From the NCBI RefSeq assembly GCF_000816105.1, contig NZ_CP007140.1:1080388-1144387 (forward strand): a DNA stretch of 64,000 bases, in the 5' to 3' direction. This stretch comes from Thermococcus guaymasensis DSM 11113. Its GTDB lineage: Archaea; Methanobacteriota_B; Thermococci; Thermococcales; Thermococcaceae. The position numbers and the translations under genes were made by a program. Of this stretch, positions 56,124 through 61,731 are shown piece after piece; positions within the stretch are counted from its first letter, which is position 1, and the number at the start of each line of letters is the position of its first letter. Below the pieces are notes generated by a model. The model saw only the letters and a list, made by a program, of their open reading frames with translations, did no database searches and was not told the origin of the DNA.

Positions 56124-56345
56124 ATGAACGAAAATTTAGACATCGAGTGCGAGATCAAGAATATTCTGAGGGTAGAGGGTCCGTTGAGTGTTGCTTTTAT
56201 TACCCGGTTCTTGAACGAGAGGGGCATTGAGTGCACGAGACAGAAGGTTGAGCGTGTTCTTAGAAATCTTGTCTCCAGGGGAGTTGTTGTGGCTTCTCTT
56301 CAGTATAACCGGAGAAAGCAGTATCAGTTGGGGAGGAAAGATTGA
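56124..56345 (+). CDS. Small winged-helix DNA-binding protein
   Basis: 73 aa from ATG 56124, behind AGGAGG. The whole protein is one winged helix: CEIKNILRVEGPLSVAFITR, FLNERGIECTRQKVERVLRN and LVSRGVVVASLQYNRRKQYQ. Strongly basic C-terminus. Its stop overlaps the start of the next gene (TGATG), so both are made together. Position just upstream of the DUF1102/signal peptidase operon suggests a regulator of it. Confidence 0.75.
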   Translation: MNENLDIECEIKNILRVEGPLSVAFITRFLNERGIECTRQKVERVLRNLVSRGVVVASLQYNRRKQYQLGRKD

Positions 56346-56830
56346 TGAGATCTGTGGCCTCTTCAAATGTTATCCTAGGAAATAAGAGGCGGATGCTCCT
56401 AATTGAATACCTCCAGAAGTTTGATGGACGGGCCGAGTTAAGAGATGTGGTCGAGTATATAGCTGAGAAGGAGGGCAACACAGATAGAAGGCACAGGAAG
56501 AGCGTTTACGTTAGCCTCATGCAGACCCACATCCCAAAGCTTGAGCGCGAGGGTGTGGTGGCCTTTGAGCGTGGAGTTATAACTCTCCTCCGGGTTCCCG
56601 ACAACGTTACCCTGTACATGGAGGTTGTTCAGAGGAACGATATAAGCTGGAGCACTTTCTCCGCTGGCCTCTCAATTATCTTTCTCATTACAGCCCTGTG
56701 GTTCAGAGATCCCCTCCTGATCTTTGCTTCCGTTGTTTACCTAGTCGTGGCGATTTTACAGCATAGGAAGACGTACTGTGTTCTTCAGCCAAAAAGATCA
56801 AAAGGAAGGGGAAATTCTAGTAAAAAATGA
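56345..56830 (+). CDS. DUF7344-type winged-helix protein with two membrane helices
   Basis: 161 aa from ATG 56345, with GGGGAGG eight bases upstream. The N-terminal winged helix resembles haloarchaeal DUF7344: ILGNKRRMLLIEYLQKFDGR, AELRDVVEYIAEKEGN, RKSVYVSLMQTHIPKLEREG. Two predicted membrane helices follow (STFSAGLSIIFLITALWF, LLIFASVVYLVVAIL) and a basic tail. It could act as a membrane-tethered transcription regulator. It ends 12 bases before the palindromic operator of the next operon. Confidence 0.78.
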   Translation: MRSVASSNVILGNKRRMLLIEYLQKFDGRAELRDVVEYIAEKEGNTDRRHRKSVYVSLMQTHIPKLEREGVVAFERGVITLLRVPDNVTLYMEVVQRNDISWSTFSAGLSIIFLITALWFRDPLLIFASVVYLVVAILQHRKTYCVLQPKRSKGRGNSSKK

Positions 56831-56841
56831 GGTAATATCCC

Positions 56842-56857
56842 ATTACCGTTCGGTAAT
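56842..56857. promoter_or_regulatory. Palindromic operator of the DUF1102 operon
   Basis: ATTACCG-TT-CGGTAAT is a perfect 7-2-7 inverted repeat with a further GGTAAT half-site at 56831-56836. It sits 8-10 bases upstream of the TATA box, where TFB contacts the BRE, so a bound regulator would interfere with or assist initiation. The two winged-helix proteins encoded directly upstream are the obvious candidates. Confidence 0.7.
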
Positions 56858-56865
56858 CTCCAACT

Positions 56866-56874
56866 TCATATATA
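56866..56874 (+). promoter_or_regulatory. TATA box of the DUF1102/signal peptidase operon
   Basis: CATATATAG is a near-consensus box. The transcription start expected near 56897 leaves a leader of about 155 bases before TTG 57054. Confidence 0.65.
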
Positions 56875-57053
56875 GGTGAGGCGGCAACTGTCCTTGGGTG
56901 CGACCGTATGGTTGCCCTGATTCGGGGCATCCGTGGTGGCAGCTTGGTTTCAAGTGTTGAGTGTGTGGTAAGGTTGCGGATCCTGGCATGCATATGGATC
57001 CCGCACTCGCAGTGTGGCCTGTTCCACGGTGCCTCTATACGGAGGCGAAAAAA
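56875..57053 (+). other. Long GC-rich leader with inverted repeats
   Basis: No gene is convincing here. Inverted repeats include GGCAAC (56883) with GTTGCC (56911), and TTGCGGATCC with GGATCCCGCA near 56972-57006. A leader this long is unusual in Thermococcales. It may regulate translation of the first DUF1102 protein or encode a processed RNA. Confidence 0.4.
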
Positions 57054-57659
57054 TTGAGAAAGAATATTGCCCTTGGAGTTTTTGGCCTGTTGGTGGCCTT
57101 TGGCCTTGTATTTGGGGCTGGAGCTAACTTCAGGGACTACAACGCTGACAGGAGCGTCCACTGGGACATCGTCAGCGATGATAACGAACTCATTGACCTG
57201 ACGCCCATTCAGCCCTACGCGTACCTAAACGACGGTGGCGTCCTCGTTGTTGACATAAGCCCAGACAACCCGAACTACCCAGGCTACGGCAAGGGCCTCA
57301 GCCCGAACTCGGAGTACAACTTCGACGAGGTCTTTGAGGTAAGCAACGACCTTTGGGAGGACAACATGACCATCGTCGTCAGGATAACCAACGCCAACAC
57401 CGCGATTCAGTTCTACGGCGCGGACCACAACATCCACGACGCCAGCACTGGCGCAGTTGTTTACGCCAGCGACATGGCCAAGAACGACGTCTGCTTTGTG
57501 ATAGGCTCAGGAGAGGCCGTTAAGGTCGGTATGGACTTTACCGTTGGGAACTCACTTCCAGGAGACAGTGAGAGCAGCAGCATACACATCCAGGCATGGA
57601 GACTCGGCACTGAGCCCAGCGACCTAGTTGGTAAGTGCGGTCAGCCAGTGAGCCCATGA
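57054..57659 (+). CDS. DUF1102 secreted protein, TasA/camelysin-like fibre subunit candidate 1
   Basis: 201 aa from TTG 57054, eight bases after GGAGG. A hydrophobic N-terminus (MRKNIALGVFGLLVAFGLVF) is followed by GAGANFRDYNADRSVHWDIV. This has the form of the signal used by SipW-type peptidases: glycine-rich stretch, small residue, aromatic-x-Asp, then charged residues. The mature part is acidic and beta-rich (DDNELIDLTPIQPYAYLNDG), expected to be a jelly-roll/Ig-like fold. A paralogue follows 15 bases later and the signal peptidase after that. Family recognised as archaeal DUF1102; fibre role inferred. Confidence 0.8.
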   Translation: MRKNIALGVFGLLVAFGLVFGAGANFRDYNADRSVHWDIVSDDNELIDLTPIQPYAYLNDGGVLVVDISPDNPNYPGYGKGLSPNSEYNFDEVFEVSNDLWEDNMTIVVRITNANTAIQFYGADHNIHDASTGAVVYASDMAKNDVCFVIGSGEAVKVGMDFTVGNSLPGDSESSSIHIQAWRLGTEPSDLVGKCGQPVSP

Positions 57660-57674
57660 AAGGAGGAATGAAAG

Positions 57675-58208
57675 ATGAATAAACTATTTGGATTGGCTTT
57701 ACTGATGGTTGGAATGCTCCTGGCGGTTGGTGCAGGCGCAAACTTCAGGTACTACTCAGCCGACAGGCAGGCGAGCTTCGATGTCGTCTCCGACGACAAC
57801 GAACTTATTGATTTGACGGCCCTTCAGCCCTATGTGACCTACGACGCTGGAAAGATGTACGTCGACATCAGCCAGTACAACCCCAACCATCCGACAGGCG
57901 GTGGAAACGGCATGAGCCCCAACACCACCTACGTCTTTGAGGAAATGTTCCAGGTAAGCAACGAGCTCTGGGAGAACAACGAGACCAACTATCCGATATG
58001 CGTCACCATAAAGACCGAGCACGATGATGTGATGATCTTCGCGGGTGACTACGACAACATGATAGCCGGACCCGCCAGCAACATCCAGTTCACAGTTGAA
58101 CACGGAAACCCGATTCCGATTGGAATGATATTCGACAACACAAACTCGACAATTGGTCAGTACCAGTTCCAGATGAGCATTGAGGCCGTTGCAGGCGCGT
58201 GCCCGTGA
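57675..58208 (+). CDS. DUF1102 secreted protein, fibre subunit candidate 2
   Basis: 177 aa, ATG 57675 behind AGGAGG. It is a clear paralogue of the preceding protein: signal MNKLFGLALLMVGMLLAVGA, then GANFRYYSADRQASFDVVSD and DNELIDLTALQPYVTYDAG, with FEEMFQVSNELWENN against FDEVFEVSNDLWEDN. A sequon-rich segment (NTTY, NET, NST) suggests N-glycosylation. The C-terminus ends with a cysteine near the end (GACP), as the first has GKCGQP. It could be a major or minor subunit of the same surface fibre. Confidence 0.8.
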   Translation: MNKLFGLALLMVGMLLAVGAGANFRYYSADRQASFDVVSDDNELIDLTALQPYVTYDAGKMYVDISQYNPNHPTGGGNGMSPNTTYVFEEMFQVSNELWENNETNYPICVTIKTEHDDVMIFAGDYDNMIAGPASNIQFTVEHGNPIPIGMIFDNTNSTIGQYQFQMSIEAVAGACP

Positions 58209-58258
58209 TTTCGTTTTAGGGGCCTTTGCCCCATTCTAGCCTTTGAGAAGGGATAGCA

Positions 58259-59335
58259 ATGAAAAAACTGATTGAGAATGTGGCAATAGTGTTGATGCTC
58301 ATATTCCTGGCCACATCAGTGGCGGGATTCATCCTTGATAGGCCTGTTCTGGTTTCTTACGCATACTCCGAGAGCATGACGCCGACCATAGACAAAGGCG
58401 ACCTCTTTTTCATAAACCCCCTCTCAAAGGCTGGAGACGTCGGTGACATAATAATCTTCCACCGACGCGATGGATGGACAGTCCATCGGATATATGCAAT
58501 CACAGAAGAGGGCTACATCACCAAAGGAGACAACAACGTGGCAACCGACCAGCAGGACGGTGTCTATCCACCAGTAACTGAGAAAGATGTTATTGGAAAA
58601 GTCATAGTGATTGGGGGACATCCTCTGGTAATACGTGGCGGGGGGGACTTCATCGAGAACCTCCGTTCAAAAATGAACAACGTATACATTGTTGGTGCCC
58701 TGATAATTATAGGTACCGTTCTGACGTTTTCGGGCGGAAAGAAAAATAAAAAACACCGCAAAAAATCGAAGAGATTCTTCAAGGTGCCCATGAAAACCGT
58801 GTATGCCGCGGTATCGGTACTGATAATAGCAGGTTTTCTGTTCGTCACAATGGCATCATGGGGCACACTTGCGTTTACGTACTCATCAACGCTGGCCGGA
58901 GGACAGAAAGAGGGCTGGTACCTCCCAGGAACCACATTTGAAAAGAATCTCAGCGTCGAAAACCATGCGGTGTATCCTTTCTACTACTTCATAGAACCCA
59001 AAAGCGAGAGAGTGAGGCTGCTAAGTGAGGACACGTTCGAGATCCCCGGGGATGGGAGCCACAGCGTTCTTCTGGCGGTGTCAGTGCCCGGGGACACCAG
59101 AATATACAGGGAGGAAATCGAGGTTCACTCGTACCCTGCGATTCTGCCGTCAGGCACCATACGCTGGGCCTATAACATCGACCCCTACCTGCCCCTGCTC
59201 CTTTACTCCATTGAACTCGCCGCGATAATGATGGTTTTCTACTACCTCGCGGGCATTGGGGAAGGGGAAATAGTGAGAATTAGAGTCAGAAGAAGAAGCA
59301 TCCTGAGCAAGATAACGGGAGATGGTTTATTATGA
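58259..59335 (+). CDS. SipW-like signal peptidase I with extended C-terminal ectodomain
   Basis: 358 aa. The N-terminal half is an archaeal/Sec11-type signal peptidase: membrane helix (VAIVLMLIFLATSVAGFIL), Ser in YSESMTPTIDKGDLFF (about 38), His in WTVHRIYAI (about 75) and Asp in GDNNVATDQQDGVYPP. A second helix (YIVGALIIIGTVLTFSGG), a lysine-rich loop and a third helix (VYAAVSVLIIAGFLFVTMAS) follow. Then comes a ~110-residue external beta-type domain and a last helix near 325. Normal Sec11 enzymes are half this size. It overlaps the next gene as ATGA and likely processes the DUF1102 proteins. Confidence 0.85.
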   Translation: MKKLIENVAIVLMLIFLATSVAGFILDRPVLVSYAYSESMTPTIDKGDLFFINPLSKAGDVGDIIIFHRRDGWTVHRIYAITEEGYITKGDNNVATDQQDGVYPPVTEKDVIGKVIVIGGHPLVIRGGGDFIENLRSKMNNVYIVGALIIIGTVLTFSGGKKNKKHRKKSKRFFKVPMKTVYAAVSVLIIAGFLFVTMASWGTLAFTYSSTLAGGQKEGWYLPGTTFEKNLSVENHAVYPFYYFIEPKSERVRLLSEDTFEIPGDGSHSVLLAVSVPGDTRIYREEIEVHSYPAILPSGTIRWAYNIDPYLPLLLYSIELAAIMMVFYYLAGIGEGEIVRIRVRRRSILSKITGDGLL

Positions 59336-60705
59336 GAACCCTGTTTTTCCTGACGGCATTTATCTTGGGGGCACTGCTGATCATCGGTTCAAGCGGTAAT
59401 TTCAGGACGTACACATCGGAAAGGGCGGCGTGGATAAACGTCGTCAGCGGGGAAGATTCGTACATCGCGTACAGGTGTATAGAAAATCCACTGATCATCG
59501 ATGCGGGCTCCAGCGTGGAGTTCGTGGCGGTTACAGTGGAGAACAAGATGAACGTCCCAATCTCCGTCCACATAACCGCGGATTTCTCCAACCTGCCGCT
59601 GGGAGCGGTGGGAAGCGTTGAGGACACCGTAAAGACCCTCGACCCAGGAGAAATCGCCCAGTTCAGGGGTAACATAGAAAGCGCACCCTCTGCAAGCGGC
59701 GGCCCCTACGAGGTACCGGTTACAGTATACGCCGAATGGGACGGGGGAGACGCAAAGATAGAGGCGTGCTCCATAAACGTGATGTTCAGCGGGGGACCCA
59801 CGATAGAGAAAGAGCTAATCTGCGGTAACACCGAGGTACCCACGCACACATATCAGGAGTGGAGGTTCAGGATAAAGGTCACGAACCCCGGGATCGCCAG
59901 GAACCTGACGATAAAGGACGTCGTGAGGGGAGAGTTTGGAATAGACTCGATAGCCCCAAGCACCGGAAACTACACCGTAATTCAGCACGGAGCGTCTCAT
60001 CACATCATATGGGATGTCGAGTTGGACGCGGATGAAACCGCATACATGGACGTGACGATACACACCAAACTCAACCCCGCAGGAAAGCAGGAGTTCACAT
60101 CGTGTGGGGATTACAGCCTGAACGACGGTGCCGAGATAGTCGGATACAACATCACCAGCAACAGCATCACGGTCCACGCAATCTGCGAGGGAAACGACTG
60201 CAGCCTGGATGTGACGAACACAAAGGTGAGCGGACCAAACCCGCTGAAGGCCAACATCCCCGCCGATTACCACACAAGAATATCCGTGGAGAACACAGGC
60301 GGGGCAAAGACCGTCGTGATGAAGCAGTACGTAGGGAAACACTTCACCCTAACGGACTACAGCCCAAGCAAGGGCAGCGTAACCGTGGAGCCAGTTCTCA
60401 CAGGGGGAACGATGGTAACGTGGACGCTCCACTTATCACCAGGGGAGACAGCGGACCTTGATCTGTACGAGCACACATCAGGAATACACGTCTGCGGGCA
60501 CCTCCCCAGGATAGTCCTGTTAACAAGTAAAATTTACGTGGAGGACTGCGGGTGTACGGCGAATCCCATCCTCGTGGTAGTCAAAAAGAGATGTGGCTGC
60601 CATTCGGAAGTTCCTGACATGGGAATAGACGAATACGTTTCGGACAACATGGAAAGCTGCGACGCCCAGCCCGAGGGCACCTGCCCCTGGATGGACGGCG
60701 GCTGA
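59332..60705 (+). CDS. Multi-domain secreted protein with DUF1102-like signal region
   Basis: 457 aa, overlapping the peptidase stop by 4 bases. The N-terminus LGALLIIGSSGNFRTYTSER and AAWINVVSGED has the same pattern as the two DUF1102 proteins. After this N-terminal domain come at least two repeated ~120-residue beta-sandwich-like units (RFRIKVTNPGIARNLTIKDV; TRISVENTGGAKTVVMKQYV), like DUF11/CARDB modules. A cysteine-rich C-terminus (DCGCTAN, KRCGCHSE, ESCDAQPEGTCPW) suggests disulfides. It could be a fibre tip, adhesin or cell-surface anchor. Confidence 0.75.
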   Translation: MRTLFFLTAFILGALLIIGSSGNFRTYTSERAAWINVVSGEDSYIAYRCIENPLIIDAGSSVEFVAVTVENKMNVPISVHITADFSNLPLGAVGSVEDTVKTLDPGEIAQFRGNIESAPSASGGPYEVPVTVYAEWDGGDAKIEACSINVMFSGGPTIEKELICGNTEVPTHTYQEWRFRIKVTNPGIARNLTIKDVVRGEFGIDSIAPSTGNYTVIQHGASHHIIWDVELDADETAYMDVTIHTKLNPAGKQEFTSCGDYSLNDGAEIVGYNITSNSITVHAICEGNDCSLDVTNTKVSGPNPLKANIPADYHTRISVENTGGAKTVVMKQYVGKHFTLTDYSPSKGSVTVEPVLTGGTMVTWTLHLSPGETADLDLYEHTSGIHVCGHLPRIVLLTSKIYVEDCGCTANPILVVVKKRCGCHSEVPDMGIDEYVSDNMESCDAQPEGTCPWMDGG

Positions 60706-60729
60706 ATTATTTAGGAGGCATGATTTGGT

Positions 60730-61731
60730 ATGAAGATTAATAAAACCAATAGAAGAAAATTCCTCGGGGTTGCGATTGCAGTCTCACTTGGACTGGCGAT
60801 CACGTTTATGGTCTACTCCGGGCTGGCATACGCGCGAAGCCCCACAACCACGCATGCGTCCTATGAGACCGCATACGTGGAAACTGGAAAGCTGACCCAT
60901 TGGGGGTTCTTTACCAATGAAACGGTCTACAAAAACGGAACTAGCCTTGAGTATTATCCTGAAAAAATAACGAGCTACATAGCTGGTAACTACGTATACC
61001 TAGCCGAGCCAGGAGCAACGGCACACTACAGAGCGGCCTTGAAGACGGACTACTACGTAACCTCTGGAAAGGATAGGATATACATCACGAATACGAGCCA
61101 GATCCTTGGGGAGGGCGACTTCTCCGGCACGTTTTCAGTCCCAGTAACCTTTAACCTCACGGACATGGAGATATCCCTTAAACGGATACGTGAAGGAACG
61201 GGGCTGTACCGGGCAGAGGCTGACGTTTACCTCCTCGTCGAGGTTGCGTCTAATGAACGGGAGGCGTTTGTTCAAAGGGTTTCCTTGACCCGAGATAGCG
61301 GTGGAATGCTCACGCTGAAGGGCGCTGAAAAGGAGAACAAGAAAGTCATAAGGCACGTCAACACCACGGTCAATAAAGTAAGCTTCCTCGGGAAGGAAGT
61401 CAACGTATCCACCGCCAGGACAGTTTTTCCGGTGATGGCTGTGCTCTTCATCATACCTCCACTCGGGTTTGCCTACCTCTCCAGGGAGAGAAAGGTGGAC
61501 GAACTGAAGGGACTCAGGAAGTTCATAGTCGAGGGAGTCCCAAGCGCCATCGGCACGATCGATCCGGTGAACCTTGAGTCAGTCGAAGACCTAGAGAAAG
61601 TGTTCGATCTGGTCGATAAGCCAATAGTGCACTACCGGCAGGATGGCGAGGACGTCTATGCCATAGTGGATGGAGACGTGGTTTACGAGTACAGAAAGCC
61701 CCTTCCAGGGGGAGGGAAGGAGGCCAACTGA
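60730..61731 (+). CDS. DUF5305-like membrane protein
   Basis: 333 aa, ATG 60730 behind AGGAGGCAT. An N-terminal helix (FLGVAIAVSLGLAITFMVYS) starts an external domain with YETAYVETGKLTHWGFFTNE, EYYPEKITSYIAGNYVYLAE and AHYRAALKTDYYVTSGKDRI, which match the archaeal DUF5305 pattern. A second helix near residue 240 (TVFPVMAVLFIIPPLGFAYL) leads to a ~90-residue cytoplasmic tail (FIVEGVPSAIGTIDPVNLES). DUF5305 proteins often lie beside archaeal signal peptidases. It may be an assembly or anchoring factor for the operon's secreted proteins. Confidence 0.75.
   Translation: MKINKTNRRKFLGVAIAVSLGLAITFMVYSGLAYARSPTTTHASYETAYVETGKLTHWGFFTNETVYKNGTSLEYYPEKITSYIAGNYVYLAEPGATAHYRAALKTDYYVTSGKDRIYITNTSQILGEGDFSGTFSVPVTFNLTDMEISLKRIREGTGLYRAEADVYLLVEVASNEREAFVQRVSLTRDSGGMLTLKGAEKENKKVIRHVNTTVNKVSFLGKEVNVSTARTVFPVMAVLFIIPPLGFAYLSRERKVDELKGLRKFIVEGVPSAIGTIDPVNLESVEDLEKVFDLVDKPIVHYRQDGEDVYAIVDGDVVYEYRKPLPGGGKEAN

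Follow-up and report, generated by a model that had tools for sequence, protein, structure and literature searches.

The 64,000-nucleotide stretch of the Thermococcus guaymasensis DSM 11113 genome analyzed here (the window; contig NZ_CP007140.1, positions 1,080,388 to 1,144,387) includes, at its nucleotides 56124-61731, a block of seven genes that probably (at about 0.8) makes a Taf-type, donor-strand-assembled fimbria. As judged by profile comparison, its two DUF1102 proteins are homologous to the haloarchaeal Taf-type fimbrins, which are their closest relatives. The block can be considered a putative Sec-type, divergent branch of the Taf group, predicted to form a fibre and to work in a TasA-like manner without being TasA. 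An initial annotation, made from the sequence alone, had described the seven open reading frames; all of them were confirmed on the + strand and the Pfam and NCBIfam matches agree with that description. The genes are listed below.

56124 to 56345, + strand: small winged-helix-like regulator (73-75 amino acids), first gene of the block
56345 to 56830, + strand: DUF7344 winged helix-turn-helix (wHTH) domain (Pfam, 2.1e-18) plus two C-terminal transmembrane (TM) helices, candidate membrane-bound regulator
57054 to 57659, + strand: DUF1102a, pilin-like fimbrial subunit (Pfam DUF1102; Taf profile comparison), predicted mature part from 57126 (NFRDY)
57675 to 58208, + strand: DUF1102b, pilin-like fimbrial subunit (Pfam DUF1102; model; Taf profile comparison; BLASTP), predicted mature part from 57741 (NFRYY)
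58259 to 59335, + strand: endoplasmic reticulum (ER)-type, SEC11-like signal peptidase with an extra TM-beta-TM extension (TIGR02228; catalytic residues)
59332 to 60705, + strand: 457-amino acid immunoglobulin (Ig)-stalk protein with the pilin N-terminal segment (Pfam DUF11, 1.5e-5; model; shared segment), predicted mature N-terminus NFRTY at 59398, candidate TapA-like initiator/adaptor or adhesive tip
60730 to 61731, + strand: DUF5305 membrane protein (Pfam, 1.4e-9), conserved partner of fimbria-type signal peptidases

The DUF1102 subunits and the haloarchaeal Taf fimbrins

The two subunits match Pfam DUF1102 with E-values of 7.8e-55 and 1.4e-53, and they are the only DUF1102 proteins encoded in the 1.92-Mb, single-contig genome. 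Their signals contain lysine, are hydrophobic and end in A-x-A or a similar sequence; the N-F-R-x-Y-x-A-x-R-x-x-x-x-x-V-V that follows, with hydrophobic or small residues at positions 2, 5, 7, 11, 13 and 15, is the predicted mature N-terminus. An AlphaFold2 model built from 81 aligned mature sequences is a beta-sandwich with a core pLDDT of about 76-95, in which residues 1-20 are unplaced. The signal is of the A-x-A/N type (the slash marks the predicted cut), no class III prepilin signal is present and the model is all-beta, lacking the N-terminal helix, so the system is distinct from archaella and type IV pili, as had been supposed from the start.

Comparison of the DUF1102 and Taf profiles using hhalign gave 98.1% (E 7.7e-14) for the full proteins, and 91.6% (E 8e-7) and 87.3% when the signal and the N-terminal segment were taken out. 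A fimbrin from Halocatena matches both Pfam DUF1102 (5e-8) and TafE (9e-11), and BLASTP aligned it to DUF1102b with 25% over 167 amino acids. The Taf profile in turn matches the solved chain 9p0a, named 'Pilin', with an E-value of 6e-24. The peptidase led to the same group: tblastn with the whole protein as query revealed haloarchaeal plasmid loci, the best reaching about 26-28% identity in alignments that cover up to 92% of the query, and near these peptidases were found DUF5305, DUF7344 and fimbrins whose scores exceed the cut-offs of TafA (258 and 201 bits) and of TafE (219 and 166 bits).

The thermococcal block and the haloarchaeal Taf fimbriae (NCBIfam TafA NF052520, TafC NF052521 and TafE NF052522; relative PDB 9p0a) thus appear to share homologous subunits, including the N-terminal GAF/ANF..Y.A.R..V.VV, and in both the neighbors are a signal peptidase with extension, DUF5305 and DUF7344. 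Natrialba also has a CARDB-type protein, in the order fimbrin, CARDB protein, peptidase, DUF5305. A signal peptidase adjoins the DUF1102 homologs in Thermococcaceae and haloarchaea alike, in line with the linked peptidase of the initial annotation. The two groups differ in their signals, which carry a twin-arginine motif (MNRR) in the haloarchaeal fimbrins whereas those of the thermococcal DUF1102 proteins begin with MNK or MRK and lack RR. They differ also in that the thermococcal block is compact and colinear, and has an Ig protein with a copied N-terminus, an extra small regulator, and an operator and a leader of its own. Genes for a 'Polymer-forming cytoskeletal protein' (bactofilin/halofilin-like) adjoin haloarchaeal Taf loci in two of the regions analyzed (L130:1602-2420 and L128:7303-8475).

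A fold search with the DUF1102 model against 350,542 PDB chains returned forms of FimA as the best matches and the AbpA bundling pilus (7ueg) in fifth place, the top FimA and AbpA both with a probability of 1.00. This likeness to chaperone-usher pili is one of fold, since the block includes neither chaperone nor usher and the sequences are about 10% identical. The Sulfolobus threads (Saci_0406) are also a donor-strand fibre processed through Sec and signal peptidase I (PMC9715654); no sequence link between them and DUF1102 was seen, no profile comparison having been made. A sequence search of DUF1102 against solved structures gave chance matches only, among them a phage tail protein at an E-value of 0.005 that was judged spurious.

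Processing, assembly and the partner proteins

The 457-amino acid protein shares with the pilins an N-terminal segment. Identity between its family and the pilins is 48% over residues 1-9 and 40% over residues 1-17, falling to about 8% (ungapped) over residues 31-60, and a profile comparison links the two families (96.7%). Its model consists of Ig-like domains in a row and resembles adhesin stalks and integrin legs, and a fold search with this model returned generic Ig stalks only. TapA likewise carries the TasA donor segment (PMC9674648), and the 457-amino acid protein is a candidate for a TapA-like initiator or adaptor, or for an adhesive tip.

The signal peptidase scores above the cut-off of NCBIfam TIGR02228 (archaeal signal peptidase I) and belongs to the archaeal/SEC11 (ER, Ser-His-Asp) type, with S39 and H76 invariant and D91 and D97 nearly so. 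As the genome encodes two further signal peptidases, that of the block is probably dedicated to it. Its C-terminal TM-beta-TM extension is conserved, and there is no room for one in the two shorter enzymes (frames of 165 and 215 amino acids). Neither the extension nor DUF5305 showed homology to the pilins; we propose that together they form a membrane site for assembly or anchoring. In one of the regions analyzed (L109:8412-10606; G000:C1, about 696.4-698.6 kb, - strand) another signal peptidase, of 201 amino acids, lies beside proteins of 376 and 141 amino acids with signal-like N-termini, and this cluster is possibly a further surface system.

The features described are consistent with a mechanism in which DUF1102a and DUF1102b, having neither a twin-arginine nor a class III signal, would be exported through Sec and cut by the dedicated ER-type peptidase after A-x-A/N. 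The cut would release an amphipathic N-terminal strand (NFRxYxAxRxxxxxVV), and the unplaced N-terminus of the model suggests that this strand may insert into the following subunit, whose beta-sandwich is open, i.e. donor-strand assembly. The 457-amino acid protein, with its copy of this strand on a stalk of several Ig domains, might cap, start or anchor the fibre, and DUF5305 and the peptidase extension could supply the membrane site at which this takes place.

Conservation of the block and alternative explanations

DUF1102 is found in 87 of 94 Thermococcaceae genomes (72 of the 74 good ones), and at most a borderline match was seen elsewhere in the phylum. The order DUF7344, two or three DUF1102 genes, peptidase and DUF5305 is kept in all 40 regions compared, which come from six genera; these figures indicate that the block is not a product of chance and bear out the conserved gene order expected for Thermococcales. 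The small regulator was recognised in 30 of the 40. The 457-amino acid protein has a positional counterpart in relatives, which in one genus (g3) is a single domain of 123-148 amino acids; most of these short counterparts keep a related N-terminus, e.g. STFRSYTAER. A third DUF1102 paralog without the NFR..Y N-terminus is present in 18 of the 40 regions (L034, L042, L043, L047-L054, L060, L062, L063, L065-L067 and L071), and it is possible that it serves as an end-cap or anchor subunit, accepting a strand without donating one. In the window, ribosomal protein genes lie on one side of the block and pyrophosphatase and rpoE genes on the other, and stop and start codons overlap at 56345 and 59332, which suggests tight coupling. 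The initial description of the first two genes as winged-helix genes is reasonable, the match of the second to DUF7344 being firm and the 75-amino acid protein having sub-threshold wHTH matches only; DUF7344 is found beside haloarchaeal Taf loci too.

Three genomes lack an intact block through deletion or decay: one has a DUF7344::DUF5305 fusion (L108), another a fusion of the 457-amino acid protein with DUF5305 (L107), and the third a decayed copy consisting of pseudogenes, with seven stops within the peptidase (L106). The block can be dispensed with, and its genes tend to disappear together. These losses are what an operon that is a relic or a mobile cassette, without a constant role, would show, but the presence of DUF1102 in nearly all good genomes, the fixed gene order and operator position, the intact catalytic residues and the lack of any match of the window's DUF1102 on plasmids or viral contigs make this explanation highly improbable.

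The initial annotation assigned the block to the TasA/SipW family. A strict TasA/SipW (AbpA-type) system would share with it the operon logic of pilins, a dedicated ER-type peptidase and an accessory protein with a copied N-terminus. The likeness to TasA-TapA-SipW of Bacillus and to AbpA extends to the beta-sandwich subunits and to the donor-strand logic of the N-termini (TasA-side facts from PMC9674648); in addition, AbpA is among the fold matches and the peptidase has a weak SipW score. On the other hand, a PDB profile search with DUF1102 gave no TasA match, the hhalign comparison with a thermococcal TasA profile gave 6.6% with the signal region alone aligned, and the SipW-cognate signal model TIGR04088 found nothing above its cut-off in the host genome and did not match the DUF1102 proteins.

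True TasA/TapA/SipW loci are found separately in some relatives. Eight Thermococcaceae genomes include a second DUF5305, which in seven of them lies within a separate locus, adjoining alaS where the flank was read. Six of the seven loci showed GTWA/xF-type proteins, and L120 showed the third protein of the locus, the peptidase and DUF5305 only. The proteins scanned from these loci match the SipW-cognate signal, TasA and TapA models (L121 being a looser case), and a profile of the GTWA/xF-type proteins matches solved TasA at 3.5e-8. Clusters of this type with DUF5305 were located at L111:3954-8148, L112:3906-8084, L115:4612-8864 and L117-L120, and are absent from the window's genome. Such separate loci indicate that the TasA-type and the DUF1102-type are two different fibres using one peptidase/DUF5305 kit. 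Membership of DUF1102 in the TasA family is thus not upheld, and a strict TasA/SipW system is quite unlikely; what stands of the initial proposal is a surface-fibre operon with a dedicated peptidase and donor-strand-type pilins, the closest relatives of which are the Taf fimbrins.

Several observations weigh against a Taf-type fimbria. The TM-scores of the DUF1102 model to FimA and AbpA are just 0.39-0.48 (0.43-0.48 for 7ueg), and 9p0a was absent among the 50 fold matches listed. The profiles used in the hhalign comparison with Taf were shallow, and the thermococcal proteins fall far from the NCBIfam equivalog cut-offs (23.7 versus 190 bits for TafA, 18.8 versus 155 bits for TafE). Literature searches on DUF1102 and TafA returned nothing useful, and neither a micrograph nor a proteome or a structure that would show a DUF1102 filament turned up. 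Finally, one relative (G080, region L105) lost the DUF1102 genes only and retained the regulators, the peptidase, the Ig protein and DUF5305, which suggests that the partner genes may have another job too. This genome, and the negative search for filament data, would also agree with DUF1102 proteins that are secreted or belong to the cell wall (as S-layer-associated or matrix glycoproteins), being cut by the linked peptidase without being fibre subunits. We consider this unlikely in view of the homology of DUF1102 to named fimbrins, and via them to the PDB 'Pilin', and of an N-terminus that is unplaced, conserved, amphipathic and copied in a neighbor; a Taf-type fimbria is the reading that we prefer.

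Operator and leader RNA upstream of DUF1102a

The region between the DUF7344 gene and DUF1102a includes the following features.

56831 to 56847, no strand assigned: operator palindrome GGTAATATCCCATTACC, with a third half-site GGTAAT at 56852-56857
56869 to 56874, + strand: TATA box (TATATA) of the pilin promoter, from the sequence and its conserved position
56893 to 57053, + strand: DUF1102a leader of about 160 nucleotides, with element B at 56924-56936 (GGGGCATCCGTGG), element C at 57024-57035 (CCACGGTGCCTC) and a Shine-Dalgarno (SD) hairpin at 57031-57046

The 17-bp operator has the consensus GGTAAY-N5-RTTACC and lies upstream of the TATA box. It was found with at most one mismatch in 48 of 50 relatives (shuffles, 0.1%), in 46 of which 21-22 bp separate its end from the TATA box; the sole other match in the genome falls inside a coding sequence. 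We propose that the two wHTH proteins of the block act on this palindrome.

DUF1102a starts with the TTG at 57054, and its SD sequence, GGAGG at 57041-57045, lies within a hairpin that is conserved in 23 Thermococcus leaders and whose motif occurs once in the genome. The anti-SD strand can alternatively pair with an upstream element whose position is the same in 20 of 21 leaders. Three of the nine pairs of this B:C helix vary on both sides, and the observed pairing was reached by 4 of 500 shuffles; there are only nine distinct B:C combinations, and therefore few independent events. Alignment of the whole leader with MAFFT and RNAalifold recovered the invariant SD hairpin only, the long-range helix having been tested separately, and Rfam gave no match in the region. 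The energy of the whole leader in the window is not exceptional (z -1.65), so a switch is to be read as hypothetical. A two-level control may be imagined, in which one wHTH protein of the block would bind the three-half-site operator and a bistable leader, alternating between the B:C helix and the SD-sequestering hairpin, would act as a translational switch of fibre production sensing a ligand, a protein or temperature; this is a tentative model to which we give less than even odds. The operator and the competing leader helices are new in this analysis, and they make the regulation of the fibre genes directly testable.

On the Taf-type reading, DUF1102 would no longer be a Pfam family without a known function: its members, which almost all Thermococcus and Pyrococcus genomes encode, would be fimbrial subunits. 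It would also mean that two distant archaeal groups, the hyperthermophiles and the haloarchaea, use a common set of fimbria components: the subunits, an extended signal peptidase, DUF5305 and DUF7344. Within this set DUF5305, as the shared partner of Taf-type and TasA-type systems, could be the assembly factor that is still missing.

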